Origin: Neoscytalidium dimidiatum
Taxonomy: Eukaryota; Ascomycota; Dothideomycetes; Botryosphaeriales; Botryosphaeriaceae
DNA: 64,000 nt
Assembly: GCA_037367355.1 (NCBI GenBank)
Contig: CM074703.1
Span: 1,116,001 to 1,180,000, forward strand
Direction of reading: 5' to 3'
Below the pieces are notes generated by a model that ran no database searches, had not been told where the DNA came from, and saw only the letters and a program-made list of their open reading frames with translations. Below are positions 1 to 28,127 of this stretch, in pieces. The position numbers and the translations under genes are program-made. Each line of letters starts with the position of its first letter. The first letter of the stretch is position 1.

Positions 1-901
1 GGCAGCCGCACATCATCCCAGAGACACACTACCGAAGTTCCTATTCGAGAGGATATATACGTACAAGCAGACTGCCGACAATCTCGGGAAGTGCGACCCT
101 CAGCTGACGACGAGCTGCGTTCCAGCAAAGCGCAGCGCATAACCAACAGGCCGCGAGAGCATAGATTTACAAGCTCATGACCCGCCGATCCTGCCTCACC
201 GCAAGCATGAACGCCGAAGGGCACCGAAACCGACATAGCCACCGTGATGTCCGCCGCCGTCCCCTCACGGTTCTTTCCGGATCGGCACAGATCCACCGCG
301 GAGCACAGGAACCGTTGACACGGTAATCATTTACCGCGCCAGCCCATGGTCACATCCGATATCGCAGATGGTGCCTTCCCAAACGGTTTGCTGCCTCCGG
401 AGACAGAGTCACCCATGCAAGGGCGTGTCGGCGAATATGGGCGGAAGACGAGTTCGGAAAAGGCCGTTGAAAATTAAAAAGCCGGTGAAGGGGTAATAGA
501 GCCGTTTGGAGTATTGCAGGCATCGGGTGAAAGGATTGGAGATGGGATTGCTGCCGATGACGGGCCACTGACAACGTGCGAGCAGTTGAAGGGTTGAACC
601 GGACGTAAGTGGGTACTTGATGCTTCGTTTGAGCAGATACTTTAGCCTGCTCTGCATTGGCTACATGCAAGATGGGCGCGGCTGGTCCGTAGGAAAGCGA
701 GGAGGGCCTGAGCTCTACCTAGACGTGATTTACAACTCCATCAAGCACATTCGGAAAAAACCATTCTTTTTTGTCTCTACCAGCCTCTAACCAAGCAGCC
801 AGCCAACCGAAGGACGCGGTATCATTCGAACAGCTTTTTTGACCTTCTCAACCAGTACACGAAAGACATCACAGATCCTGAAAAGCTACGACGACCTTCT
901 C
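1..901. other. No gene recognised (left edge)
   Basis: I see no coding signal I can support here. The short open frames have no recognisable composition or motif. The right part lies just beyond the stop codon of the homoserine kinase/AIR synthetase gene and probably includes its 3' untranslated region. Confidence 0.5.
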
Positions 902-3225
902 TTAATTCCACACGCTCTCATTCCTGACTACACATCCCTCCTCTCCCTCCTTCCTCTCTCGTAACTCACCCACAACAAACACCTTCTCGCCAGCTTGCTC
1001 CAGCACGGCCTTCGCCTCCTCCACCTTCGCCTTCTCAACCACGCACACCATACCCAAGCCGGTATTGAAAGCGCGCGCGAACTCCCTATCCTCAACCCCA
1101 CCGGCCTTCTTCAGCCAGCGGAAGACGGGCGGGACGGGGTACGCCTCGGCGTCGACAACGGCCTGGAGGTGAGGCGGCAGCATGCGGGGGATGTTCTCCA
1201 GGAGGCCGCCGCCGGTGATATGGGCCATGCCCTTGAGGAGGGAGCGGCGGGCGGCGGCGAGGAGGGGGCGGACGTAGATGCGGGTGGGCGTGAGGAGGGA
1301 GACGCCGACGGTGGCGTCGCTGGCCCAGGGAGCGGGCGAGTGGAAGGAGAGGCCGGCGCGCTCGACGATCTTGCGGATCAGCGAGAAGCCGTTGGAGTGC
1401 GGCCCGCTGGACGCGAGGCCGATGAGGACGTCGCCGGACGCCATGGACGCCGTGTCGGGGAGGATGGGCTGGCCGCGCGCGAGGGCACCGATGGCGGCAC
1501 CGCCCGCGTCGTACTCGCCGGTTGAGTAGAGGCCTGGCATCTCGGCCGTTTCGCCGCCGACGAGCGTGCAGTTGGCCTGCTTGCAGCCCTCGGCGACGCC
1601 GTGGACGAATGCGGCCGCAGCGTCGACGTCGAGCTTGCTGCAGGCGTAGTAGTCGAGGAACATGAGCGGCTCGGCGCCCTGGACGACGAGATCGTTAACG
1701 TTCATGGCAACGAGGTCGATGCCGACGGTGTCGTGCTTGCCCATTTCGAAGGCAATCTTGACCTTGGTGCCGATGCCGTCGATGGCGCCGACGAGGATGG
1801 GCGCCTCCTTGTAACCTGCAGCGGCGAGGTCGAAGGTGCCACCGAACCCACCAATCTCAGCATCAGCGCCTGCCCGACGGGTGGACTTGACGGAAGCCTT
1901 GATGCGCTGGACGAGCTCGTTTCCAGCATCAATGCTGACGCCGGCAGAGGCATAGGTCATGGCTTCTTGCTGGGAAGGTGTGCCACGAGTGACAGTGGTA
2001 CCATCCTCGGCCGGCTCTAGGAGCTTCCAGTCACAGGTGATGTTCTCCTTCTTGAATTGCTCGATTAGGTGATTCGCAATGCCGTCAAAATTGTGAGTGG
2101 CCAGTGCGAGGATGGTGGGACCAGCACCAGATAGGCAAATACCAAGGAGACCAGGGTGTGACTTGGGTGTAACGGATTGAAGGATCTCAGTGAGACCGGG
2201 GATAAGGGTCTTACGGTAAGGCTGATGGACTTTATCTTGCATTCCCTCGTAGATCATGTCCGGGTCTGGGGGAGATTCGCCAAGAGCGGTAGTCAGGAGA
2301 GCTATTCTCTGCAGATTGAAAACCATGTCGGCACGGCTGTATTGGGCGGGAAGGACTCCTCTCGCCTTGGCAGTAGAGACTTCGAATTGGGGTATTATGG
2401 CTATGCACTTGATCTCCTTGGCCCATTTGAACTTCTTGTAGTGACCGATGTTGAGCGGCGGCTCCGGAGGTTGAAGACCGGTGTCAATACCACCGGCAGG
2501 CTCAGGCAACACTTCCGCCAGCGGGATCTCCTTGCGAGACATGTCTGCGGGATCCAGCTCATTCAAGTAGGTGCCTACAAAGCCACCATACAGAGCGGCG
2601 GCAACGTTATCAGGATGCCTCTCGATCATGAGACAGTAGTCCAGCATTCTGGCCTTGGACAGACCCAGGTTTCCCACCTCATTTCCGAGGTTTACACCGG
2701 CGACCTAGACAAGTATCAGCCGATACAATGTGTTTGTATGTCTCGCCGCAGCCAATGGCCAGCTGAGCTCTGGTGGGCACGGAGTTGATCATACGAGGCA
2801 GCTGGCTCTGCACATTCTGCTGCCACGAACGACCCTCCATGCGCGCCGTCGAAAGCTGGCCACCGCTCACAGCAAGGTCGCGCAACTCAGGCGAGGCCTA
2901 CCACTGCGGCACCACTGCTCCCCAACCCCCTGCCCAAGGGAATTGGGTTCTTGATATGAACGTGGGTGCCGGGGAATTTCCTCTGACCATGGCACTTGAG
3001 GACGTACAGGGCGACGCGGGTAACGAGGTTGACCTCCGGGTCGAGGCTGACTTCGTCCTCGCCCTGGCCTTCGTAGGTAATGCGGCAGTGGATCGGGTTG
3101 GCTTGCGCGGCGGAGGGATCGGGGGTGACGTGAAGCTCGAGATAGATGGAGAGGGCGAGGCCAATGACATCGAAGCCGGGGCCAATGTTGGCGGACGAAC
3201 AGGGCACCTTGATAACGCTGGCCAT
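902..3225 (-). CDS. THR1: Homoserine kinase fused to AIR synthetase (phosphoribosylformylglycinamidine cyclo-ligase)
   Basis: Two exons, complement(join(902..2704,2902..3225)), give 708 aa in one continuous frame. Residues 1 to about 347 are a full-length GHMP homoserine kinase (homoserine to O-phosphohomoserine, threonine pathway). It has the ATP loop [14 protein letters not shown] near 94-107, the block around [14 protein letters not shown], and [11 protein letters not shown] before the usual C-terminal WKLLEPA. After a linker of about 8 residues, residues 356 to the end are a complete PurM-type AIR synthetase (FGAM to AIR, purine pathway). It has [20 protein letters not shown] and [13 protein letters not shown]. 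The 197-nt intron falls at the GAAV/VAG junction inside the kinase. In yeast and most fungi AIR synthetase is instead the C-terminal half of Ade5,7, so this partner swap is unusual. Divergent from the GAR synthetase gene, 234 bp away. Identity of both domains is very sure; that one polypeptide is made is inferred from the open frame. Confidence 0.93.
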
Positions 3226-3459
3226 GGCTGTGGGTGGCTCAACGCGCGCTAGGTCCTCTGAATTTGGGCGATTGACTCTCGAGATTTGTGGGCGAGGACT
3301 GCAGTGGTTCGAGTCACCGGAGAGCGTTCAGCCCTACCAGAAAAGTTCCCAGCTCGTGCCCCGCAATCGGCCCTGCTCCACCAAAATTTCAAGCCCCAAG
3401 CTCTGCGCCGCGGGGCACCCTTCCAAAAACCAACCAACACCGCAATCCAAGACTCCACA
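3226..3459. promoter_or_regulatory. Shared divergent promoter with two Gcn4/CpcA-type sites
   Basis: The 234 bp between the two start codons must hold both promoters. It contains TGACTC at 3273-3278 and its reverse complement GAGTCA at 3311-3316, within GAGTCAC. TGACTC is the core of the Gcn4/CpcA amino-acid starvation element. Threonine genes are classical targets of that regulator, and yeast purine genes also respond to it. Two cores in so short a region suggest joint induction of both genes, but a 6-bp core also occurs by chance. Confidence 0.55.
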
Positions 3460-4846
3460 ATGGCCGACGTCCGTGTCCTCCTCGTTGGCAATGGCGGCAG
3501 AGAGCACGCCATTGCTTGGAAGCTCTCGCAGTCCCCCCGCATCGACCAGATTTTCGTCGTGCCTGGCAACGGCGGCACCGGAGCTCTCACCAAGACGCAG
3601 AACGTCGAGTCTATCAAGGCCGACGACTTCCCGGCTCTCTCTAAGTTCGCGCTCGAGAACAACGTAAACCTCCTCATCCCTGGCCCCGAAGCGCCTCTCG
3701 TAGATGGCATTGTCGACCACTTCAACAAGCATGCCCCGCAGATCAAGTGCTTCGGTCCCTCTGGCAATGCCGCTCGCATGGAGGGCAGCAAGACCTTCTC
3801 CAAGGACTTTATGAACCGTCACAACATCCCCACCGCCGCCTACCAAAACTTCACCTCATACGATTCTGCCAAAGCATACCTCGAAACCGTTACGCATTCC
3901 GTCGTTATCAAGGCTTCCGGCCTGGCAGCCGGCAAGGGCGTCATAATTCCCACCACGAAGGAGGAGGCACACCAGGCGCTGAAGGATATCATGCTGGACC
4001 GTGAGTTTGGCGCCGCTGGTGATGAGGTCGTCATTGAGGAGTACCTTGAGGGCGACGAGCTCAGCATCCTGACCTTTAGTGACGGCACTAGCATCAAGAG
4101 TTTGCCCCCGGCTCAAGACCACAAGCGTATTTTCGACGGTGACCAGGGCCCGAACACCGGTGGTATGGGTACTTATTCGCCTACGCGCATCGCTCCCAAG
4201 GAAATTGTGGACAAGGTCCACAAGGAGGTGCTGCAGCCTACCGTTGACGGCATGAAGGCCGAGGGTATGTTTGCGCTCTGGATGCTCGAGCTCGCGGTCG
4301 GCTGATCACTACGCAGGCTACCCCATGGTCGGCTGCCTGTTCACTGGCCTCATGATGACTAAGAACGGCCCAAAGGTTTTGGAGTACAACGTCCGTTTCG
4401 GTGACCCCGAGACTCAGTCACTCCTGCCGCTGATGGACAGCGACCTCGCGGAACTGATGCTCGCCTGCACCGACAGCAAGCTGGGAAGCTTTGACTTGAA
4501 GGTAGGGGAGAAGAGTGCTGCGACTGTGGTCGTTGCTGCCGGCGGCTACCCTGGGTCGTACAAGAAGGGCGTCGAGATGAAGCTGGACCCCGTGCCGAAC
4601 GGTAGGTGCTTCCCGCGGACCTGCTACACACTCATCTAACCCACTACAGACACCGTGCACTTCCACGCTGGTACTACCTTTAAGGATGGCGTCCTGCGTA
4701 CTTCAGGTGGCCGTGTCATCGCATCCACGGCATGGGCACCAACTCTGGAAGAGGCTGTCCAGAAGGCATACAAGGGCGTCGAGGCTATCCACTTTGAGGG
4801 CATGCAGTACCGCAAGGACATTGCAGGCCGCGCGTTGAAGAAGTAG
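3460..4846 (+). CDS. ADE5: Stand-alone phosphoribosylamine-glycine ligase (GAR synthetase)
   Basis: Three exons, join(3460..4264,4317..4601,4650..4846), give 428 aa, the length of a monofunctional GAR synthetase. The enzyme joins glycine to phosphoribosylamine with ATP in purine synthesis. The N-terminus reads VRVLLVGNGGREHAIAWKLS. The ATP-grasp core follows: the block around FGPSGNAARMEGSKTFSKDF, then KASGLAAGKGVI, then the GPNTGGMGTYSPT and LEYNVRFGDPETQ metal and ATP segments. The protein stops at KDIAGRALKK, just where the linker to AIR synthetase would begin in the usual bifunctional Ade5,7. The AIR synthetase domain is instead fused to homoserine kinase on the other side of the shared promoter. 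Introns are 52 and 48 nt with GTATGT and GTAGGT donors. The start codon is the first ATG in frame with the family N-terminus. Confidence 0.94.
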
Positions 4847-5640
4847 ATTGTGTCAAAGGTGAGTGGGATGCGCATTTTGGTAATGTGGATATGATCGTAA
4901 ATATCAAAAATCAGGAGTCCAAAAAGGTATGTGGATCGGTTATGAATCAGGATATCCAAAAATAGAAAATATGGTATGGTAGGAGGTCCTGCGAAACAGC
5001 GCAAAGGGGCCCAAAGGGTTGGAATCGCCAAATAGTCGACATCTTGATGGGAACACGTTGAGACCGAGAACAAGATAACGCCATTGTTGGGCGAGACATC
5101 AAGGACAATGTCGTGGTTTTGTTAGCTAGTGTTGCATAGACTTGAGGAGTGCTGTTTGGCGACCATCTCATTGAACGGACAAGAAGATGAACACAAAATT
5201 TCCAAAGTGAGGTCATGACATTGCGCCATAATGTGATCAGCGATACTTCCCGGCGGTCAGCTGGCACGCTGGTCACTTATCGCGGCGGCATCCGGGCGGA
5301 ACATCGTCACCACCGAGACAAGCAGAGAAGCTCGAAGGATTGCGTCGCGGCCAGCCGCGCCCGCCGCCAAGCAAGCAAGCCGCCTCATCACCCCAACCTC
5401 AACCTCAGCACACATCCTGTCACACAATCGCACACTGCCGCGTCACATCCCCGACAACTACGTTTCCTCCTTCCAGAACGCACGCCCTGCGAACCTCGCC
5501 GTCCTAGCATCGTCGCCGCCGCCGCCGCCGCCGTTGTCACTCAGCCAGCTCCTCCGTAGCGACCGCAAGCAAAGCTTCGCCCGCAACCTCGCCGCCGCAT
5601 TTCCCCCATCAGCCAACACACACACTCGCCGCCGTTCATC
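4847..5640. other. Intergenic, with a (GCC)n tract
   Basis: No supported gene. It contains the 3' flank of the GAR synthetase gene and the promoter and leader of the V-ATPase subunit f gene. A short GCC trinucleotide run lies near 5514-5533 and CT/CA-rich leader sequence precedes the ATG at 5641. Confidence 0.5.
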
Positions 5641-6493
5641 ATGAAGCCCGTCGTCTCCGCCCTCAACGCATGGACATGGTACGCCCTCTTCTTTCCTCTA
5701 TTCCGCTCCAGCCTACCAATCACAGCATCCCATCGGTGGGAAGAGCGGAGATCGGACATAAGCGCGGAAAACCGTGGATATTGAATTGATCGTTTCGCTA
5801 ACTCTGGTGTTCTGTCGATAGCATTGTCGTGTCCGTCTTTGCCATCGTCATTTTGTCCGTTATCGGCTCGTTGTTTAAGGTGCGTTGAAGCTAGTTGTTG
5901 GTTGCGCGTCCTGTGCGGATTCCCGAGCGTGGCTGTACGAATACTTCGATTTGGGTGGTGCGAGCGTGGATGCAAGCTCCGCCCGTACGTTCGGAGAAGT
6001 GGGGAGGGGAGCTTCCCTGGTTTGGTTTATGTAGACTGGGAAACAGCGTCAAGCGGGTTGTGAAGGAGCTGGCAGGCTCCCTCCAATCTGCTACGCTGCG
6101 CCGCATGCCTCAGCCGCACCACCACCTTTACATATTCCATCTTCCCAACTTTCCTCTGCTGTCCTCCCGTTCTCGATGCCCACTGTAGCAGACGCAGGAT
6201 CAAAAGCTAACATAATCTTCTACAGTCGAACAACCACATCATGATGGGCTCGACTGAGGACCCGGAAGACGGCAAGGCCGTTGCGGGAGCCGTGTTCGGA
6301 GCAGTCGCCGTTTACGGTGTACGTAATATCCATAACTCTCTTTTCAGGCAATCGCATTCCTCCTGTACATGTAAACAATCAGGGAAGACGAGTTGCTAAT
6401 AAGCCCACGATATAGGTCTTCTTAGTATTCTGTGCCGGCCAGGCCTTCCTGCACATCCGCGAGAGCAGGCGTGGGGCTATCGCACTGTCGTAA
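5641..6493 (+). CDS. V-ATPase V0 subunit f (Ypr170w-b / RNase-kappa homologue)
   Basis: Four small exons, join(5641..5678,5822..5879,6226..6318,6416..6493), give 88 aa. The protein matches the yeast V-ATPase subunit f and animal RNase kappa family. It starts MKPVVSALNAWTCIVV, has a first membrane helix (about 12-31), a lumenal loop with the conserved SxxDPEDGKAVA segment, a second helix (about 59-79), and ends FLHIRESRRGAIALS. Subunit f is a membrane component of the proton-pumping V0 sector. Introns are 143, 346 and 97 nt. Donors are GTACGC, GTGCGT and GTACGT, all acceptors end in AG, and a GCTAAT branch site is visible in the last intron. All splice phases agree. No single exon exceeds 31 codons, so ORF-length methods miss this gene. 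Confidence 0.9.
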
Positions 6494-8056
6494 TAATGCG
6501 GGTACGCTGTATCGCTGTGACCACAATGGCCCATAGACGATCTGCGATTGGGGGTTGGTATTCCCCTCTTAAAGGGGAAGATTGATGGGTACTGGGGAAG
6601 CTACGGGGAGGAATATATGGGTGGTTTTGGGGAGGTTTTCATGAATATTTGCATCCTTGCCAGTAGGCCGGACGGGGATGGTCAGGTTTACCGGGAAGGG
6701 GAACGGAAATGAGCACGTAAACAACACATACTTATCGCTCTTGACATCACTTTCAAGCGGGGAGAGACATGTATCTGGAATACTCTGGCGTTTCTTCCTT
6801 CATCAACGTTGTTTGTTGGGTTAGGTTGAGATTGTTTGGCGTAAAGGAATTTTTTTCTCCTTCCCTTTTCTCTTATTCGCAGTTGGCGATGGGCGACAGA
6901 TGGAAGAGCGTAATGTTGGGTTTCTTCTAGAAAAGGAATCTCTCTGGGAGGGTATTACTTCCACACTGGTTGTGAGCGGTTTGCTGAAATGTCGCTAGTC
7001 TGTATAGGTCGGCGAATAAGAGGGACAGAAGCTTCGATTAAGAAGGGTACTACTGTTCCAAGTGTCTTTGCCTCTGTCTACACGTGAGACGGAAGAATGA
7101 GGGATGCTCTAGCGGGTGCGCTATCGACCCAGTTCCGACGTCAGTCGAATTTCGCAAGATGCGGCTCTGCGGTTTCGCCACCCTCAGTTCTGCGCCCTGT
7201 TCTTAAGAGCCACAGAAAATTGAGACGATAGATTGCTGACTAACCATGTCAGCCTTATATCACTCAGTACTCCGTTTCTTATAGAAATCTGCGCCCCATC
7301 TTTTGAGGCTGCAAAAAATGGACGCCATACCTCTACTGCATTCATAAAGATAGCAGGAGTGACTCAGAGTCACGATTACGTCATAATGGAGAGACTTGGT
7401 GTCCCCCACTGCGCTCTATCCTTTAGAGTGGCAGAAGATGGAGACTTCACGTCTCTGCCTCCCGGCTAGAAGCTACGGTGCGACGTTGATTTTGAGTCTG
7501 CCTGATGCTAGTTGATTAGGTATAAGAAAAGGAAACTGTGCCCAATCTGCGCAAGTTGCATGACAAAGAGAAGACCTTCCATCCACTCGATTGATTTTGA
7601 TCTCCTGAGATCAACAACGCCAAGCTTATAGAAGTTAATGAAGCCTCTTCTCCGTATCCATTTTTTCCAAGCCTTGGGTAGAAATTGATAATTTTGTATT
7701 TCCTCTTCTAGTTCCTCATGAAAACGGCATATTATTTCCACACTAACTTCCGGATATCATCGCTCATTCTCTCCAACAGAGCGCGCGCAAGAGAAGTAAA
7801 AAAGAGCTTGGGAAAAGAACAAATAGTAGAAACCGGAAACACCAACCCAATGCAAGCCTGGGGGTCTGTGATATCATTCCGACCATGCACACACGCACAC
7901 GCACAATATCGCTTTACGCTCGCCTTAAACGCCAGATCCAGCCCAGCACCAAAAGAGGTAGAACCCAGCAATAACATCCCCATCTGTACAGGAAAGCTCC
8001 CCGAACCCGTCATATACAACCGGGACATTTCCGTCTCTTTTAGCTTCGTGTCTTCC
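6494..8056. other. Intergenic, no gene recognised
   Basis: About 1.56 kb between the convergent V-ATPase subunit f and AP-2 mu genes. The open frames here are short and low in similarity to anything I know. It should contain both 3' untranslated regions. Confidence 0.5.
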
Positions 8057-9581
8057 TTAGAATCTGATCTCGTAATTGCCGGCGCGCGTCATGTACCGCA
8101 CCCACTTGACGCTGCTGTAATTGCTCTTCTCGAACACCTTCAAATACCGGACCAGCAACCCGCTGCTCGTGAACATGAGCAGCGAGAAGCTCAGGCTCAG
8201 CGGCGGCCGGCTCCACGCCTTCTGATTCGTCATGCTCGTCAGGGTCGCCTCGGCGCTCAACACGTACTCGCTCTGGCCGGTAAAGCGGGGGATCTTCCAG
8301 ACGATGTTGTTATGCTCGGGCTCGTACTTGGCCTTGCCCTGGCTGGTGCGGGAGCTGATGTTGGCGGTGTTGAGCGGGGTGGGGATGCGGACGACGACGT
8401 TGGTGGCGAAGAGCTTGGAGCCGTAGTTGGCGCGGATGGCGATGCTGTACTCGACCTTGGTCTTGCCGATCTCGTTGACGATGGCGTGCACCTTGAACGG
8501 CAGGTTCACGTTCTCCGTCGCGCGGTACCGCATCAGCTCGAACTCGCCGTCCGGCGGCACGAAGCTGATGATGCGGTCCGTGTCGAACTTGCCCAGCTTC
8601 ACGCACTGGTGGAACTGGCAGTCCTCCAGCGTGACCGACCCCGCCGCCGCCCGCGTGGCCTTCGTCCCCGCGCGGTTGCCCGACGGCGTCGAGAGGCTGT
8701 CTTCGCCGAGCGTTAGGCGGTCGTTTAGGCCGAACTTGCATTCGGGCGTGCCGGACAGGTAGGCGCGCATGATGATCTGCCCGTTGACGTCGGCGCGCAG
8801 GACGGTGCCCGTTGCGGACATGAGGAGGTTCACGTCTTCGATGACGTCGACGAAGGCTTCGTTCTTGCGGTACTTGATATCCGACCGTCGCCAGGAGAGC
8901 GCACCAGTGGCTTGCATCGTGATCTTGGACGAGTCCTCCTGCGAGTGTTTGTTAGCCTCCTCCCCCACAAGATTAGTATATTTGTACCGCGTACCATTGC
9001 ACGTTCCGACTTGACGCCCTCGGTCGTGATGTACATCTTCAGCGTCTCCGTCTCCGTGTTCTGCGGGTATCCGAAATCGAGAATCTCTGTGGTCCGCACG
9101 TCAGTGGTGCGTTGTCCCCGGCTGCCTCCTTTACACCAACAATATAAGCGGAGAGCGCATACCATCCAGCAGCTCGTAGACTAGCACGAAGTTGTTCTTG
9201 ACGGCCTCCTCATCGAACTTGCCGAAGTAGGCCTTGCCCAGGCCGACCAGGCGGTACAGGAACTCGAAAACCAGCGCGGCGTTGGCATTGCTCTTGGTGA
9301 CGGCGACCAGGTAGATGTTCTCGTGCTTGACGTGGCTGAAGGTCGTCGAGCCCAGCGTCAGGATGGGCGAGCGCACCTGCGCGTTGCTGATCACCTGGAT
9401 GCGGAAGACATCGGCCAGCCGCGGGCGGCAGTCGTTGCGAAAGGCGCGGAAGATCAGGTTCTCGCCCTTTTGGTTGAAGATGAGGATGCCGGAGAGCCTG
9501 TGCAAGCGGGTTATCCGAATTAGTGGTTGGCTCCGAGCGGGCGCGATTGCATATTATCGCGGCGGACGGGGCGACGCACAT
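8057..9581 (-). CDS. apm4: AP-2 clathrin adaptor complex mu subunit
   Basis: Four exons, complement(join(8057..8938,8995..9086,9163..9497,9580..9581)), give 436 aa. The product is the cargo-binding medium chain of the endocytic AP-2 adaptor at the plasma membrane. The longin-type N-terminus begins MLSGILIFNQKGENLIFRAF. The mu-homology domain starts around ALSWRRSDIKYRKNEAFVDV and ends with KWVRYMTRAGNYEIRF, typical of AP-2 mu. The start codon appears split by an intron: only A and T lie in exon 1 (9581-9580), followed by a GTGCGT donor, and the G is the first base of exon 2. This restores the conserved MLSG start, and a CACTAAT branch site lies before the acceptor. The alternative is an in-frame ATG inside the unspliced sequence giving MHRLSG, which fits the family less well. 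Confidence 0.92.
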
Positions 9582-11502: not shown

Positions 11503-13311
11503 ATGGCGACCGCCACCATGACCGAGACGATCCCCAAGGGCCGTCGGCTGCCCAAGAATGTTAAGCTGCCGCCGGAAAACGAGCGCTACATGCGCGCCTG
11601 TGCAGACATTGCCAGCGCACTTATCCAGGACTACGAAGCCTCGCTGGATGGCTCCAAGCCCAAGAAGGATATCAATCTTAATGCGCTTCGCGGCCAAATG
11701 GCGAAGAAGCACTATCTGAGCACCCAGCCGCCACTTACCGCCATTATCGCCGCCGTACCAGAGCACTACAAGAAATATATTTTGCCAAAGCTCATAGCAA
11801 AGCCTATCCGTACGTGACAGAAATCTTTCGCTCTCGGAATTCTCTAGAGCATGTGCTGAAGTTTAACAGGAACTTCCTCGGGAATCGCGGTGGTGGCGGT
11901 TATGTGCAAGCCCCACCGCTGCCCTCATATTTCCTACACCGGCAACATCTGCGTATACTGCCCCGGTGGTCCCGATTCCGACTTTGAGTACTCGACCCAG
12001 TCGTACACTGGCTATGAGCCGACCTCCATGCGCGCCATCCGCGCGCGGTACGATCCCTACGAGCAGGCGCGGGGCAGAGTCGACCAGATCAAGGCGCTCG
12101 GGCACAGCGTAGACAAAGTCGAATACATCATCATGGGCGGCACCTTCATGTCGCTACCAGAAAGCTACAGGGACGAGTTCATCTCGCAGCTGCACAATGC
12201 CCTAAGCGGGTACCAGACCACGAACGTGGACGAGGCCGTGATGGCAGGCGAGATGAGCAACATCAAGTGCGTGGGAATCACTATCGAGACCAGGCCGGAC
12301 TACTGCCTCGACCAGCATCTGAGCGCGATGCTGCGGTACGGCTGCACGCGCCTCGAGATTGGCGTGCAGAGCCTGTACGAGGACGTTGCGCGCGACACCA
12401 ACCGCGGACACACGGTCGCCGCCGTGGCAGAGACCTTCAAGCTGGCCAAGGATGCGGGATTCAAGGTCGTCTCGCACATGATGCCGGACCTGCCCAACGT
12501 AGGCATGGAGCGCGACCTCGACCAGTTCCGCGAGTACTTCGAGAACCCAGCCTTCCGCACCGACGGCCTCAAGATCTACCCGACCCTCGTCATTCGCGGC
12601 ACAGGCCTGTACGAGCTGTGGCGGACGGGGCGCTACAAGAACTACACGCCGAACGCCCTGATCGACCTCGTCGCGCGCATCCTCGCCCTCGTGCCGCCGT
12701 GGACCCGCATCTACCGCGTGCAGCGCGACATCCCCATGCCGCTCGTCACGGCCGGCGTCGAGAACGGCAACCTGCGCGAGCTGGCCCTCGCGCGCATGAA
12801 GGACTTCGGTACCACCTGCCGCGACGTGCGCACCCGCGAGGTCGGCATCAATGAGGTCAAGAACAAGATCCGCCCCAGCCAGGTCGAGCTCGTGCGCCGC
12901 GATTACGTCGCCAACGGCGGCTGGGAGACCTTCCTCGCCTACGAGGACCCCAAGCAGGATATCCTCATCGGCTTGCTGCGTCTGCGCAAGCTGAGCAAGA
13001 CGCACACGTTCAGGCCCGAGTTGACCGGCCAGCCCACGAGCATGGTGCGCGAGCTACACGTTTATGGTACCGCGGTGCCCATGCATGGCAGGGACCCGAA
13101 GAAGTTCCAGCATCAGGGCTACGGAACGCTGTTGATGGAAGAGGCGGAGAGGATTGCGAGGGAAGAACATCGGAGTAAGAAGATTAGTGTTATCTCCGGT
13201 GTTGGTGTGAGGGATTATTACCGCAAGTTGGGATACTGGCTCGACAACGGCATTTACATGTCGAAATGGCTTGAGCAGGATGATCAGGATGACAGTGATG
13301 ATGAGGAGTGA
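11503..13311 (+). CDS. ELP3: Elongator catalytic subunit ELP3 (tRNA U34 carboxymethyl-forming radical SAM/KAT enzyme)
   Basis: Two exons, join(11503..11809,11870..13311), give 582 aa. ELP3 is the catalytic subunit of Elongator, which modifies wobble uridine in tRNA. The radical-SAM region holds the cysteine cluster [20 protein letters not shown] and then [12 protein letters not shown] and ETRPDYC. The C-terminal acetyl-CoA-binding (GNAT/KAT) part has [18 protein letters not shown] and ends [14 protein letters not shown] plus an acidic tail. The 60-nt intron (GTACGT donor, AACAG acceptor) sits just before [14 protein letters not shown] second ATG five codons downstream is a possible alternative start. 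The gene is divergent from LSC1, with 268 bp between start codons. Confidence 0.95.
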
Positions 13312-20722: not shown

Positions 20723-21471
20723 GATTGTTTCCGCTCTGGATAGGGCTGTGATCCTCAGAGTCATGTGGCGAATCTCTCCATTTCTTTATAGAAACCAGAA
20801 CCGGGAGAGGCATTGTCTGTACCTATCGCAGATGGCAGCCCTGCGTGGGGTTTCCTAATCGGCGAGCCATGTCCCTGCCGATCAGTCACAAGTAACGTAA
20901 TGGTAAGGGAGGAACATGTGCTTATCTTTAGCGGTCAGTACTGTTTAGTCGTTATCCATACCTCCTTCGCTTCATCTTTGCCCCCCACCCATGTCTTGGC
21001 ATTGGTCGACACAACCGTACCAAGATCCTAGGTCTTCCGGTTAAGCGGAGGTTGGGGCTGTGCGAACTGGTGAGTAGACTAGCGTAAATGTTCTGCTGCT
21101 GTTAATATCGGAACGACGCTCCCCGCGGGGTTCCAAAAAGGCGATTTTGAAGCCTCTTTCCTTTTATGGAAAGAATGAGTGAACGCCCGTCGGGCCCTCG
21201 CCCGAGGCTAATCCTCGGCCCCGCCTGCTCGACCGCTGGAGGCAAGGAATTTCTCGTACGTAGCGACTGAGAGAAACTTGCTTGCCGGATGCTGTCTCAA
21301 CATCTCGGCCACCAAGGATTTCCATATTGGAAATGACGCAATGCGGCCTGGGTCGTACGAGTAAAAAAGCTGCTGGCCATCTGACAGACCGCGACTGAGC
21401 AACAACGACAGTATAAAGCTGTACTGGTGATCAATCATCAAGCCCACCTGGCGGTCCATGAGATAGTGGCC
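20723..21471. promoter_or_regulatory. Divergent intergenic region between amidase and propeller genes
   Basis: About 750 bp holding both promoters. Short inverted repeats such as CCCCGCGGGG near 21121 are visible but not diagnostic. An open frame on the minus strand at 21208-21480 has no motif I can name. Confidence 0.4.
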
Positions 21472-22530
21472 ATGCAGCAAGACCAGAACAAGAGGAGAGC
21501 GGCCGCAACTGCGCCACGACCGTCACCACCAGCTTCGAGGACGGATCAGAAATCCCAGACCAACTTTCTCAAGCTTGCAATTCTACCAATTGTTGCTGCT
21601 ATTATCGCATCCCTCCTTTCCCAGCCTCACACTACCAACCTCACCTCCACCGATGCACAATCGAGCCGGATCCGCACGGTTTACCAATTCTCAGACACCA
21701 GCACATGGATCGAAAACATCGCCGTCCGTAGCAATGGGAACCTCCTAGTGACCCTCGTCCGGCCCGCGCCCGACCTCTGGGAGATCGACCCGGCCACCTC
21801 GCGCGCCACGCTCGTCCACCGCTTCGACGGCATGCCGCTGCTGACCGGCATCACCGAGCTCGAGCCGGACGTGTTCGCCGTCGGCTCGCCGCAGACGCTG
21901 TGGCGCGTCGACTTCAACCGCGACTCGGCCGTCTCCGAGATCGTCACCATTCCCGAGGCCGGGTCCCTCAACGGCATGGCGACGCTGGACGCGGCGCGCG
22001 GAACCATCCTTGTTGCCGACCACTTGCGCGGGGCTGTTTGGAAGGTCGACGTGCGGACGGGCGAGCGCGAGGTCGTGCTGCAGGACGAGACGATGGCGCC
22101 GGATGACGGGGTGGGGCCGCTGGTGGGGATCGATGGGCTGAGGCTCCTGGGCGATGTGGTGTACTACAACAACTGTCCGCGTCGCTTGTACTGCCGCGTC
22201 CGTATCGATCGAGAGACCGGTGCGGCGGTTGGTCCGTATGAAGTCGTTGCCGAGGACGTCATGGCGGATGACTTCGCGCTGGGACCGGATGCTGTGGGAT
22301 ATCTTGCCGGCCTCATCGATAATGTCGTAACGCGCGTGTTTCCGAATGGCACGTACGAGGTCGTGGCTGGTGCTGTTGACGAGACAGTCTTTGCTGGGGC
22401 AACGTCGGCTGCGTTTGGCCGCGCGCCAGGTGATGAGAAGGTCTTGTATGTGACGACCGGCGGCGTGTGGGGGATCCCTGTCACGGATACGGACTTTGAA
22501 GGTGGAAAGGTGGTGGCGGTCAGGATATGA
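21472..22530 (+). CDS. Membrane-anchored SMP-30/gluconolactonase-like six-bladed propeller protein
   Basis: Single exon. From the ATG at 21472 the product is 352 aa; an upstream in-frame ATG at 21427 would add 15 residues. A short basic, proline-rich N-terminus precedes one hydrophobic segment (LAILPIVAAIIASLLS, about residues 33-48), which is either a signal anchor or an uncleaved signal. The rest shows the blade pattern of the SMP-30/gluconolactonase/LRE-like family: WIENIAVRSNGNLLVT, LWEIDPATSRA, ILVADHLRGAVWKVDV and a final VLYVTTGGVWG. Members include lactonases and, in some fungal pathways, hetero-Diels-Alder cyclases. The sequence alone does not choose between these roles. Confidence 0.8.
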   Translation: MQQDQNKRRAAATAPRPSPPASRTDQKSQTNFLKLAILPIVAAIIASLLSQPHTTNLTSTDAQSSRIRTVYQFSDTSTWIENIAVRSNGNLLVTLVRPAPDLWEIDPATSRATLVHRFDGMPLLTGITELEPDVFAVGSPQTLWRVDFNRDSAVSEIVTIPEAGSLNGMATLDAARGTILVADHLRGAVWKVDVRTGEREVVLQDETMAPDDGVGPLVGIDGLRLLGDVVYYNNCPRRLYCRVRIDRETGAAVGPYEVVAEDVMADDFALGPDAVGYLAGLIDNVVTRVFPNGTYEVVAGAVDETVFAGATSAAFGRAPGDEKVLYVTTGGVWGIPVTDTDFEGGKVVAVRI

Positions 22531-23097
22531 TTTGACGAGTAGAGAAGGTATTTCCGGCAATTGAAAGAAAGAGACTAGCTCCAATTTTTTGGTGGAGGCT
22601 TTTTTTGCTGTATAAGATTTCCTGAGGTGATGGGCAATCGAAGCGGGAAGTACTCAGCTGGCCGTGGAAACGGCGAGTATCACATGGTGGCCATTGTGCG
22701 GCAATTCTCTCCGACGGGACGTCGCACCGGAGCTCATTCTGGCATTACCTTTCATCTATATATCTTTCGGGATGTCTGCGTTGACGTCAAAAGCTCTCTA
22801 CCTACCCGGTTAGGCATCGTACATATCCGTGTTCGTGTCAGTATCCGTTTCCACGTATCCGTATGCAAGCGCGGGAACTAATGCACGGTGCAGATCACAG
22901 CAATTTCAGCCGCATTAGGCAAGTATAGATGGCATATGTTTCCATATTTTGGTGTACCCCGGATTGCTAAATCTTGCCTGTGCGGGGCATCCTTACGTCA
23001 AATAGGCTCCGGTGTGAGCCGTTCTGAGGTATAAAGCTCGAGGACAGTCCTGTTTGGGAACTGCATCTCCAACACAAGCCGGGACTACCCAGCCACA
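22531..23097. other. Intergenic
   Basis: About 570 bp containing the 3' flank of the propeller gene and the promoter of the secreted protein gene starting at 23098. A GAGGTATAAAGCTC stretch near 23027-23040 looks like a TATA element about 60 bp before the start codon. Confidence 0.5.
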
Positions 23098-24990
23098 ATG
23101 CGCCTCCCTATCACCGCATGCGCCACAGCCGTATGCTTGGCTGCACATGCTCTCCAACAGACCTTCGCAGTTGCTGATTCAGTCCCGCCTCCCCCTGAAC
23201 CCGAGCCGATCTCTGTCATTGAGCTTCCATTGCCGCCCGTTACTCCCAGCACAGACGAAGGTTCGTGCACTGTTGACATTAACCCAAATCGAACGGGCTG
23301 TATTGGGAAATCCACAGGTCTTCAGTCTGGGAGCTTTCTGCCCGACGGGAATCATGTGTCAGCCAAAGTGACCTTCGCCGGTGCGCCTGCTGCTCCCGAC
23401 CCCGCCAGCATATATTCCGGAGACCACATCATCATTGTCAAAGCTGATGGATCCACCTTCTCCAACGGCGACCCGTGGAAGTGCATCACCTGTGGCGTGC
23501 CGGAAGAGAATGCCGTGGGAAGGAGCACTGCCTTGGACTACCCGCAAACCTTTGTGGACGGTCAACGGCTCCTGGCCGGCACGAACATCATCGACTGCGG
23601 CGATCATTACCTAAACAGCACCTCCTGCACGCCGTCAGACATCCACATCTACCCTATCCGCTGGAACACTGCCCCCGACGGATCAGGTGAAGGCGGCGCT
23701 ATCCGCGAACTGCGCCTGCACCCAGACAACGTGCACCTGGGCTTCAACTCCTTCGACCTCACATCCGGCAAACTCAGCCAACTGACCCTCTTCGCACGCC
23801 TCCACTTCAACTCCTCTCCGACAACCGGCCTGCCCCTCTCCCCCCGCTACGACCTCCTCAACGTCACCCTCCTCTCCTCACCCTCCCAACGGCCCCTCAC
23901 AACCACCGGCACGCACCTCCACATCAACCACTCCGCCATCACCGTCGGCGAGCTCCGCGGTTTCAGCGGCTCCGGCAACGAAGTGACCTACATCGGCTAC
24001 CCCAGCGAATCCTGCAACATCGACGCCTACGCGGCCGACCTCTCCACCGGCGCCATCCGCCGCCTAACGCGCGACCCGGAATACACGGACCCGATCGACA
24101 TCTCGCCCGACGACGCGTGGACGGTGGCCATGGACACGCGCGGCTCGGGCCGGCAGCTGTTCCTGGCGGCGATGCGCGGCGTGCCGCCCGTGGTCGACCT
24201 GGTCGTCACGACGGCCGCGGCGTCCGTCCGCAACAACGGCGCCCGCCGCTTCTTCCAGCCGTACCTGATCGACGCGCACGGCGACCGCGGCGCCTACGCC
24301 GGGCAGCGCGTCAACGCGGCGGGCGACGGCCGCCCCGGCGCCGTGAACGACGCCAACTGGAACGGCATGGCCGATCCGCGCTGGGCGCCCGACGCCACGA
24401 GGATCGCGTACTGGCAGGCGCTGGCCGTGCCGCCCGCGTGCGGCGGCGCGAACCCGCTGCCTTGCGAGAACTCGACGGCGGAGGGGGGCCGCACGGAGAG
24501 GCTGATGCTGGCGACGCTGACGAGCAGGGCGCCGAAGGTGAGGGAGCGCGTGGAGGTGAGGGAGGATGCGGTGCCGTGGGGGACGCCGTACGTGCCGGGT
24601 GCTGAGACGCCCGGGCTCGAGTATCCGGGCCAGGGGAATTATACGCTGCGGGGCAGGGCAGCCGGGTATGCGGAGGTGGCCATCACGGCGAGGGGGGATG
24701 GGAGCGTTATCAGTGGTGTCTCGGTGAGGTACCATGGGTTCTCGGATGATGGGGAGACGTTTTTGGACGGGTGGGAGAGCGTGGCCGAAACGAATCCGGA
24801 GCCGACGCTGACTGAGGTGGATTGGTACTCCGATCTCGTACAGACGGGAGGGGCGAATGTGACAAAGAAGACGAGTCCGGATGGGTTTCATTTGAGGATC
24901 GATGCGTTGACGAATATTTTCGAGGCCAACGGAACATTGACTACGACAGTTGATGGGGTTGAATGGAAGCAACCGGCTAACGGGACTTGA
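23098..24990 (+). CDS. Secreted beta-propeller protein, saponin-hydrolase-like
   Basis: Single exon, 630 aa. A signal peptide (MRLPITACATAVCLAAHALQ...) is followed by a proline-rich stretch and a Cys-containing segment (GSCTVDINPNRTGCIG). A long propeller-like region contains WKCITCGVPEENAVGR, YIGYPSESCNIDAYAADLSTG, WTVAMDTRGSGRQ and WAPDATRIAYW, which resembles TolB/WD40-like blades. The layout resembles fungal secreted proteins annotated as saponin hydrolase, which release sugar from plant triterpenoid saponins. I make that link from recall of the N-terminal pattern, so activity and substrate are uncertain. Many Asn-X-Ser/Thr sites fit an extracellular glycoprotein. The amidase and anchored propeller genes lie just upstream, so three secreted or anchored proteins are adjacent. 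Confidence 0.7.
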   Translation: MRLPITACATAVCLAAHALQQTFAVADSVPPPPEPEPISVIELPLPPVTPSTDEGSCTVDINPNRTGCIGKSTGLQSGSFLPDGNHVSAKVTFAGAPAAPDPASIYSGDHIIIVKADGSTFSNGDPWKCITCGVPEENAVGRSTALDYPQTFVDGQRLLAGTNIIDCGDHYLNSTSCTPSDIHIYPIRWNTAPDGSGEGGAIRELRLHPDNVHLGFNSFDLTSGKLSQLTLFARLHFNSSPTTGLPLSPRYDLLNVTLLSSPSQRPLTTTGTHLHINHSAITVGELRGFSGSGNEVTYIGYPSESCNIDAYAADLSTGAIRRLTRDPEYTDPIDISPDDAWTVAMDTRGSGRQLFLAAMRGVPPVVDLVVTTAAASVRNNGARRFFQPYLIDAHGDRGAYAGQRVNAAGDGRPGAVNDANWNGMADPRWAPDATRIAYWQALAVPPACGGANPLPCENSTAEGGRTERLMLATLTSRAPKVRERVEVREDAVPWGTPYVPGAETPGLEYPGQGNYTLRGRAAGYAEVAITARGDGSVISGVSVRYHGFSDDGETFLDGWESVAETNPEPTLTEVDWYSDLVQTGGANVTKKTSPDGFHLRIDALTNIFEANGTLTTTVDGVEWKQPANGT

Positions 24991-25475: not shown

Positions 25476-27782
25476 TTACCCCTGTTGAGCGACAACTAAA
25501 AGAGCGATAATCAGCGATGTAATCGCAAAACCTATGAAAATGAAGACAAAGGCTACTAAAGCTTTAATCTTGTTTTCCTTTCCTGTGGCAGGCGTGTAAC
25601 CATTGCAGCCCGAATGCCTTCGCCCGAATGATTTTTCAAGATCGTATTGGGGAACTTTTGGTAAAGGTGGTAGAGATTCCGAAGAATAGCCACCCTTTTC
25701 ATCAAACCGTTTCCTTGGGACTCCGACGGGTAAGTTCTGGACATTAATATTTCGAGTGAGGATGAAAGAGTTAGGCATAACCGGTTCAATCACAAGATCG
25801 TTATCCACGGGCTCCACAACTCCCCTTCCAGGCAATGTCGCAACCTGAACATCGACGTTTTTGACGGGACTATACGCATCTCGGATGTCCGAGAACATCT
25901 TCTCCGCAGTGATCATATGGGCGTAGTGGTCGTCTTCGTAGACAGCAATGATAACTCCGAGAAGGAGGTTCCCAGAAACGACCCATGATCCAGACATTCC
26001 TCGCTCTTTTCAGTATGTCAGCAGTTCTCTTCTTCTTATGTGTCATAGAAATATTACTATACCTAGTGGTTTGTTAAGCTGGAGCTTTCGTGTGCAGTAA
26101 ACTGCATCAGCAGTGAAGAATGCTGATGGCATTGGCAACAGATACGCTTGAATGGGACGATTGTCGGGGGTTATAATCCACGTTGGGCCCTCTGGAAACT
26201 CATCTTCTTGCGCTGCACGTTTAATCAAAACTGATTTACCGGTCTCTGGGTTGGTGTATGTATTGTGCAAGGGCACGTATCGTGCACTAGGATAATCAAG
26301 AAGCACGAAATCCGCATCAACCAATGGGACCTCGGTCGTCAGGTTGTGTGCAGGAAAAAGCTCGCGCCCGGCATAGCACACGTTCTGGAAGATTTGGATT
26401 TCCTGCCAGTCTTCATCATTACCTTGCGAGTTATCGATGACATAGGCAGGGGCTGCTCTGAGATCCTGCTCGTTCAACGTAGGCTCAATCATTGCGTGCC
26501 CAGTCGATAAACCGTACACTGTCCCATCTACTGACACGAGTCCGCCGAGAACTGATGTACAGTGCTGTGTGATGCAACCATCTTTGACGAAGGTCAGTCT
26601 TAGCAGCAGTCCGCAGGCAGAAGTAGAGTTTGCTCGTCTTTTGACATGTATTCGGAGGCTCGTGCCATCATGAGTCGCAAAAAAACCATCAGGAAGCGCA
26701 GATTCTAAAGACTCTGTGGAGCCCACCACTCCAATGGCGAGCACTGGAGGCCGGCAGTGCACCTCGATGTTATCCTGAATAAAGTCCCGTAGGTATTGCA
26801 GATCCTTGATAGCGTGTTCTATCTCGGATTTCAGTTTCTTGTCACTGCACTGCAGCCATATCGCGGGCCTGAGTTCGACTGTTTTGGCGTTCTTCGGAGC
26901 ACGGCCTGACATACACAGGATGGGTTCCAGAAGCGGCCCTCTCGATCTGCTTGGTTGCGATGCTACAAACGCTTGCAGAATCGGAGTGATATCTGCATTG
27001 AGTCGGCGAAATATTTCTGCTTTCCACTTGTCGCATATGGTTTTCTCCGGGCGCAGGTCGCGCAACTTGCCAACATAAAGCCTTTCTCCGAAAGCTGTCT
27101 TCTCGAAAAGGTTGATCTGAATGGAGTTACATGGAACTTCAACCTGCGGTAAAGGGGAACGGTCTGTGGATCTGCTGGGGTCTGGAACTAGTGAAAGAAT
27201 CGTTCCTTCCAGTTCGGCTGGGGTTGAATCTTGTAGAGGAGGCTGTGATCTCAAAGGGAGGGTCGACGGTAGCTCAGTTACAACTTTGTTGGAACCATGC
27301 GCAGAAATAGGTAGTGCGTCTCCATCATCATGGACTCTTTGTTTAGCCTTACGGTCTGAATGTTGTTTTTGCTTCTTGGCGGATTGATCTGGATGTTCGG
27401 AATCTGTTTGGAGCTGTGGTCCCGCGGAATCGCCTTGGGCTATGACCGTGTCTTGATTAGGCAGTGTTGCCAAGTTTCTTCCATTACTGCTTCCTCGTAT
27501 GCTTTGTTCTTGGGGAATCTCGATGGCTCCATCAACAGAGCTATTTCTTTCGCTTTGCAAAGGAACAGAGGTGCGTGAGTTGATAGATTGCGGTCTTGGG
27601 TCATGTGTTGGCGGATGTAAAGCGTGTAGTTGCTTTATCTGGGCTGAAGCCGGTGATATCTTGGTGTGTTTGGCACGCTTGGAGCCGAAGCGACGGAATA
27701 CTTCTCTAATGTTGCTGATACCTTCCCTTTTGGATCGGCTCGAGATGCTTGTGGTTGTGCGTACATACTGCACCTCAGCCAT
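25476..27782 (-). CDS. Trypsin-like serine protease-fold protein with C-terminal membrane anchor
   Basis: Two exons, complement(join(25476..26005,26063..27782)), give 749 aa. Residues 1 to about 215 are low-complexity, basic and Ser/Pro/Gln-rich. From about 385 the sequence reads as a chymotrypsin-like fold with the triad in order: His429 (GLSTGHAMIEP), Asp491 (LVDADFVLLDY) and Ser578 (ERGMSGSWVV). The middle of the usual GDSG motif is Met here, so activity is plausible but not certain. The Ser block is completed only after splicing the 57-nt intron (GTATAG donor, AAG acceptor). A single hydrophobic helix (about 722-745) follows a basic patch (KENKIK) and ends near the C-terminus, suggesting tail anchoring. 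Divergent from the membrane-protein gene, 345 bp away. I know this only as a hypothetical fungal protein type; the protease assignment is from motifs. Confidence 0.75.
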
Positions 27783-28127
27783 TTGCCGCGTCGAAATGAG
27801 TTTTGAGTCGTAGCGAAGAAGAATTTTGAGAGCTGGATAGCGGTGCGTTGCGCTGAAATGCGGGTGGCAGGAAGGACCCTCTACCGTGCATAAGCGCTCC
27901 TCAGCCTCGCCTCAGCCTCGCCCCCAACAGCTGAACCCCGCTTCTTTGCAGGCAAAACCAACGGAAGCGGCAACTTCTCCGATGGCGTTAGTACTTCTTC
28001 AGTCTAAAATCGCTGCGTCCTCCGTCCATCTTCCTCAACTTATCCTGCTATCGAGACGGTAGCCTTGTTGTGAGATCTAGCCTACATCTCTCTCGCCAAG
28101 CGTGCACATCAGAAGTTTGATCCATCC
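27783..28127. promoter_or_regulatory. Divergent promoter of the trypsin-like/membrane protein pair
   Basis: 345 bp between two start codons facing away from each other. It contains a near-tandem GCCTCAGCCTCGCC repeat near 27901-27922. No known regulator site was identified. Confidence 0.5.

Follow-up and report, generated by a model that had tools for sequence, protein, structure and literature searches.

A probable homoserine kinase-AIR synthetase fusion gene beside a stand-alone GAR synthetase gene in Neoscytalidium dimidiatum

The fungus Neoscytalidium dimidiatum appears to carry a gene in which homoserine kinase (HSK) and AIR synthetase (AIRS) are joined in a single protein; judging from the sequence, we put the probability that this is a real fusion gene at about 0.9. 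The gene was found in a 64,000-nucleotide stretch of genomic DNA, hereafter 'the window', where it lies on the minus strand at 3225..902. When its one intron is removed, translation gives a product of 708 aa without internal stop. Exon 1 (2902..3225, minus strand) encodes aa 1-108, the N-terminal part of HSK. It is followed by an intron of 197 nt with GT..AG borders (2705..2901, minus strand), located within the HSK half, and then by exon 2 (902..2704, minus strand), which encodes aa 109-708, that is, the remaining part of HSK, a linker and the entire AIRS, down to a stop codon at 904-902. Pfam domains occur along the product in the order GHMP_kinases_N, GHMP_kinases_C, AIRS, AIRS_C. The original prediction spanned 902-4846; this interval contains both genes described here, the fusion and its GAR synthetase (GARS) neighbor, but the fusion proper occupies only 3225..902.

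Homoserine kinase converts homoserine to O-phosphohomoserine in the threonine pathway, and AIR synthetase converts FGAM to AIR, which is step 5 of purine synthesis. Each half of the product was compared with the corresponding NCBIfam model, and both matches were nearly full-length and above the curated cut-off. The thrB model TIGR00191 matches aa 5-347 (model positions 3-302 of 304; 351.5 bits, cut-off 168.25), which places this half in the homoserine kinase family of GHMP kinases. The purM model TIGR00878 matches aa 357-691 (model positions 1-331 of 332; 411.2 bits, cut-off 236.35), as for a PurM-type AIR synthetase. Solved homoserine kinases align with the HSK half in two stretches, which include [38 protein letters not shown] and LSGAGPT, presumably functional motifs of the enzyme.

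Conservation of the AIRS half was assessed against prokaryotic PurM proteins, 58 loci of which were found; one partial sequence was dropped, leaving 57. Among these, 41 columns are invariant, and the AIRS half retains 39 of them, so that agreement is large though not complete; the two columns that differ are at aa 419 (V to I) and aa 650 (M to F). Of the columns conserved at 95% or more, 71 out of 75 are retained, and two further differences, at aa 509 (A to G) and aa 511 (F to A), fall in columns conserved in 56 of the 57 proteins. Considering both domains, it is quite likely, as far as sequence can tell, that the fusion is real and that both of its halves are functional. A prokaryotic neighborhood of HSK and PurM was also looked for and rejected: no HSK match (E up to 1) was found beside any of the 58 prokaryotic PurM loci, within at most 4 kb on each side and less at contig ends. 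The viral contigs searched yielded no relative.

The thrB and purM matches are separated by a linker of only nine residues (RGTPSQQEA, aa 348-356; 1961..1987, minus strand), and exon 2 is open across this junction, from 2704 to 902. To look for an intron there, the region encoding aa 300-400 was scanned for a GTRNGN donor combined with a branch-like motif and an acceptor at 45 to 300 nt. One donor was encountered, and no complete set. Neither a stop nor an intron with a consensus donor is thus supported at the HSK/AIRS junction. The original prediction, in which a full HSK and a full PurM-type AIRS share one frame with no need for a stop or a splice at about 1965-1987, is borne out by these results: the linker, at 1987..1961, lies close to the proposed position, and splicing between the two domains, put forward at the time as a possible refutation, receives no support from the consensus scan of aa 300-400.

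The neighboring gene, on the plus strand at 3460..4846, encodes GARS, the enzyme of purine step 2. It has three exons (3460-4264, 4317-4601 and 4650-4846) separated by introns of 52 nt (4265-4316) and 48 nt (4602-4649), and its product is 428 aa long. The purD model TIGR00877 matches it over positions 2-424 of 425, and the Pfam domains found are GARS_N, GARS_A and GARS_C, together with weak matches to ATP-grasp relatives; the product has no AIRS domain. The claim that GARS stands alone, with its own stop after KDIAGRALKK, is therefore correct. GARS and AIRS are not part of one polypeptide, as they are in enzymes of the Ade5,7 type, and are encoded by separate genes on opposite strands. In domain content and length it resembles instead the single-function GARS of the Mycosphaerellaceae, which consists of GARS domains only and is about 428 aa long.

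We then searched the whole assembly (43,759,583 bases in 40 contigs, possibly incomplete), in which the window corresponds to G000:C9:1116001-1180000. By protein search, one locus was found for AIRS, one for HSK (in two stretches) and one for GARS (in two stretches), and the thrB and purM family models concurred with one locus each. A second AIRS, HSK or GARS gene was not detected by protein search of these 43.8 Mb, nor a second HSK or AIRS by the family models, and the existence of further copies elsewhere was rejected within the limits of an assembly that may be incomplete. This includes the second intact GARS-AIRS gene that had been named as a way of refuting the fusion. Since AIRS and HSK each have a single locus, neither activity has another visible source. 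Threonine synthase (thrC), which acts one step after homoserine kinase, was matched in three collinear stretches at G000:C8:899093-900471 (minus strand), unlinked to the fusion; these score 147.5, 82.9 and 50.6 bits, and none alone exceeds the cut-off of 167.1, the matches being obtained exon by exon. As a separate observation on the assembly, the sizes of 18 of the 20 contigs C21 to C40 are exactly divisible by 20,000 (20,000 to 80,000). In many of the C21 to C40 contigs the first 10 kb are AT-rich (GC 0.26 to 0.45), and in C40 (307,956 bases) these 10 kb have a GC of 0.307; assembly residue, AT-rich repeats and organelle DNA are candidate explanations. The rRNA words tried were absent from 24 pieces of small contigs, and an Rfam scan of 13 of these pieces yielded no match.

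Within the 64-kb window, no remnant of AIRS or HSK was found elsewhere beyond chance-level matches. Other genes of the window include an adaptor-complex medium subunit (8057-9100, minus strand) and a radical SAM and acetyltransferase protein (11860-13311, plus strand), which we take to be Elp3-like. Three long open frames of 381, 651 and 622 codons (21385-22530, plus; 23035-24990, plus; 26043-27911, minus) matched no Pfam family at an E-value of 0.001 or below.

GARS and AIRS are described as usually fused in fungi (PMC7552465, PMC9502316). The original prediction, whose interpretation is partly supported, took this as its context, which is incomplete: the stand-alone GARS is not new, since it has been published for Z. 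tritici (PMC5568738). According to this 2017 paper, the Z. tritici 'Ade5,7' homolog (Myco4, 428 aa) is devoid of AIRS domains, closely related Mycosphaerellaceae likewise have GARS domains only, and AIRS is encoded by a separate Z. tritici gene, JGI 74864. Deletion mutants require adenine or hypoxanthine (PMC5568738). The word 'homoserine' is absent from the main text of the paper. As for the fusion itself, no HSK-AIRS protein was described in the titles and abstract openings among the open-access matches listed. As far as checked, HSK-AIRS is a new domain architecture in the open-access literature; it could sit unremarked in sequence databases.

How might the fusion have arisen? The present order is AIRS-HSK reading left, a gap of 234 bp, and GARS reading right. 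In the ancestor, HSK would have stood head to head with a fused GARS-AIRS gene. A single inversion of the block formed by HSK, the promoter and GARS, with breakpoints at the 3' end of HSK and in the GARS-AIRS linker, would have detached AIRS from GARS and joined it to the end of HSK with no loss of a catalytic domain, and both purine genes would afterwards read out of the same 234-bp region. A single inversion predicts the arrangement observed, in which the genes stand head to head and AIRS lies at the far end. We regard this as the simplest explanation and give it about an even chance of being right. An inverted-repeat scar was looked for at the presumed breakpoints, and none was found: no reverse-complement word of at least 7 is common to segment 1930-2030 and segment 4800-4950. 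This says little either way, because 262 of 500 random pairs also lack such a word.

AIRS could also have left GARS by another route. A duplication or transposition of AIRS onto the 3' end of HSK, followed by its loss at GARS, for example, would likewise yield HSK joined to AIRS and a GARS without partner. Such a route is a possible one, to which we give somewhat less credit: it needs more steps, no remnant of AIRS was found 3' of GARS or in the rest of the window, and it leaves unexplained why GARS should be the head-to-head neighbor of the fusion.

The two halves of the fusion probably work as ordinary enzymes. They would act independently of each other on a short tether, and AIRS should tolerate an N-terminal partner, as it already follows GARS in the usual fungal enzyme. 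In our view the fusion has been kept because it does no harm, and not because it couples the two pathways, neutrality being likelier than selection.

The 234 bp that separate the divergent start codons (3226..3459) presumably act as a shared promoter. They contain two TGACTC motifs in opposite orientation (3273-3278, plus strand; 3311-3316, minus strand), which we take to be Gcn4/Bas1 cores. A selected fusion would couple the supply of threonine, and hence of glycine, which threonine can provide, to purine synthesis; and at least two TGACTC are found in 1.5% of the 234-bp segments of the 64 kb. The motif was, however, chosen after looking at the region, and it is not enriched over the window as a whole (33 found, 35.0 expected). 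Furthermore, HSK and AIRS have no intermediate in common. Selection for coupling is thus unlikely in our view. A scan of 3200-3480 for bacterial-type promoters and terminators, which is ill-suited to a fungus, found nothing. The original prediction held that the fusion breaks the physical link between GARS and AIRS. This is so at the level of the protein, but common regulation may persist, given that GARS and HSK-AIRS are both read outward from one region of 234 bp.

The fusion would matter little if the cell also, or mainly, produced an unfused AIRS, either by transcription from within the gene or by initiation at Met357. The purM match does begin exactly at this methionine. A methionine at aa 357 would nevertheless be internal in the fused ancestor too, and neither a stop nor a consensus intron separates the two halves, so that we hold such a product to be slightly more improbable still than the coupling. 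Finally, an assembly error, in which a local inversion created a false junction out of a true GARS-AIRS gene, would give the identical geometry but is very improbable: the junction is in frame with both domains whole, it sits in a contig of 3,447,747 bases, no long inverted repeat was found in 1-6500 (at most 25 nt, and 72 to 76% complementary at this length, among the 25 of 28 pairs listed), and the 428-aa single-function GARS reported for Z. tritici indicates that such a split exists independently of this assembly (PMC5568738).

The possible significance of the fusion is twofold. Enzyme fusions are commonly taken as signs of functional linkage, as when they join steps of one pathway. The HSK-AIRS fusion connects two different pathways, perhaps only as a side effect of a small inversion, and it would therefore offer a clean test of whether fused enzymes need to be functionally linked. 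Second, a swap of partners may have become fixed in a fungal lineage. The inversion would then have produced a lasting bifunctional HSK-AIRS, which would explain the GARS of Z. tritici and the Mycosphaerellaceae, with the sole enzyme of purine step 5 tied to threonine synthesis. We propose this tentatively, with rather less than even odds, and the link to the Mycosphaerellaceae would be drawn from the length and architecture of GARS only. If the proposal is true, loss of one gene would give a strain that needs both threonine and a purine. The fusion may then answer why the GARS of Z. tritici and the other Mycosphaerellaceae is single-function, the reason being given as "currently unknown" in the Z. 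tritici paper (PMC5568738).

Compared with known systems, each half of the fusion resembles a stand-alone enzyme. Like stand-alone homoserine kinases (ThrB/Thr1), the HSK half matches TIGR00191 nearly end to end; unlike them, it has no stop after the kinase and runs on into AIRS. The AIRS half shares about 42 to 60% identity with the stand-alone PurM of the 58 prokaryotic loci. Ade5,7 of S. cerevisiae, Ade8 of C. cinerea and MoAde5,7 of M. oryzae contain the same two purine units, with AIRS C-terminal to its partner (PMC7552465, PMC9502316); in N. dimidiatum, AIRS follows homoserine kinase in place of GARS, which forms a separate, divergent gene. The GARS of N. dimidiatum is like Myco4 of Z. 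tritici and the GARS of related Mycosphaerellaceae in its length (428 aa), its lack of AIRS domains and the location of AIRS elsewhere (PMC5568738). That paper names AIRS as JGI 74864 and mentions neither a partner nor a position for it.
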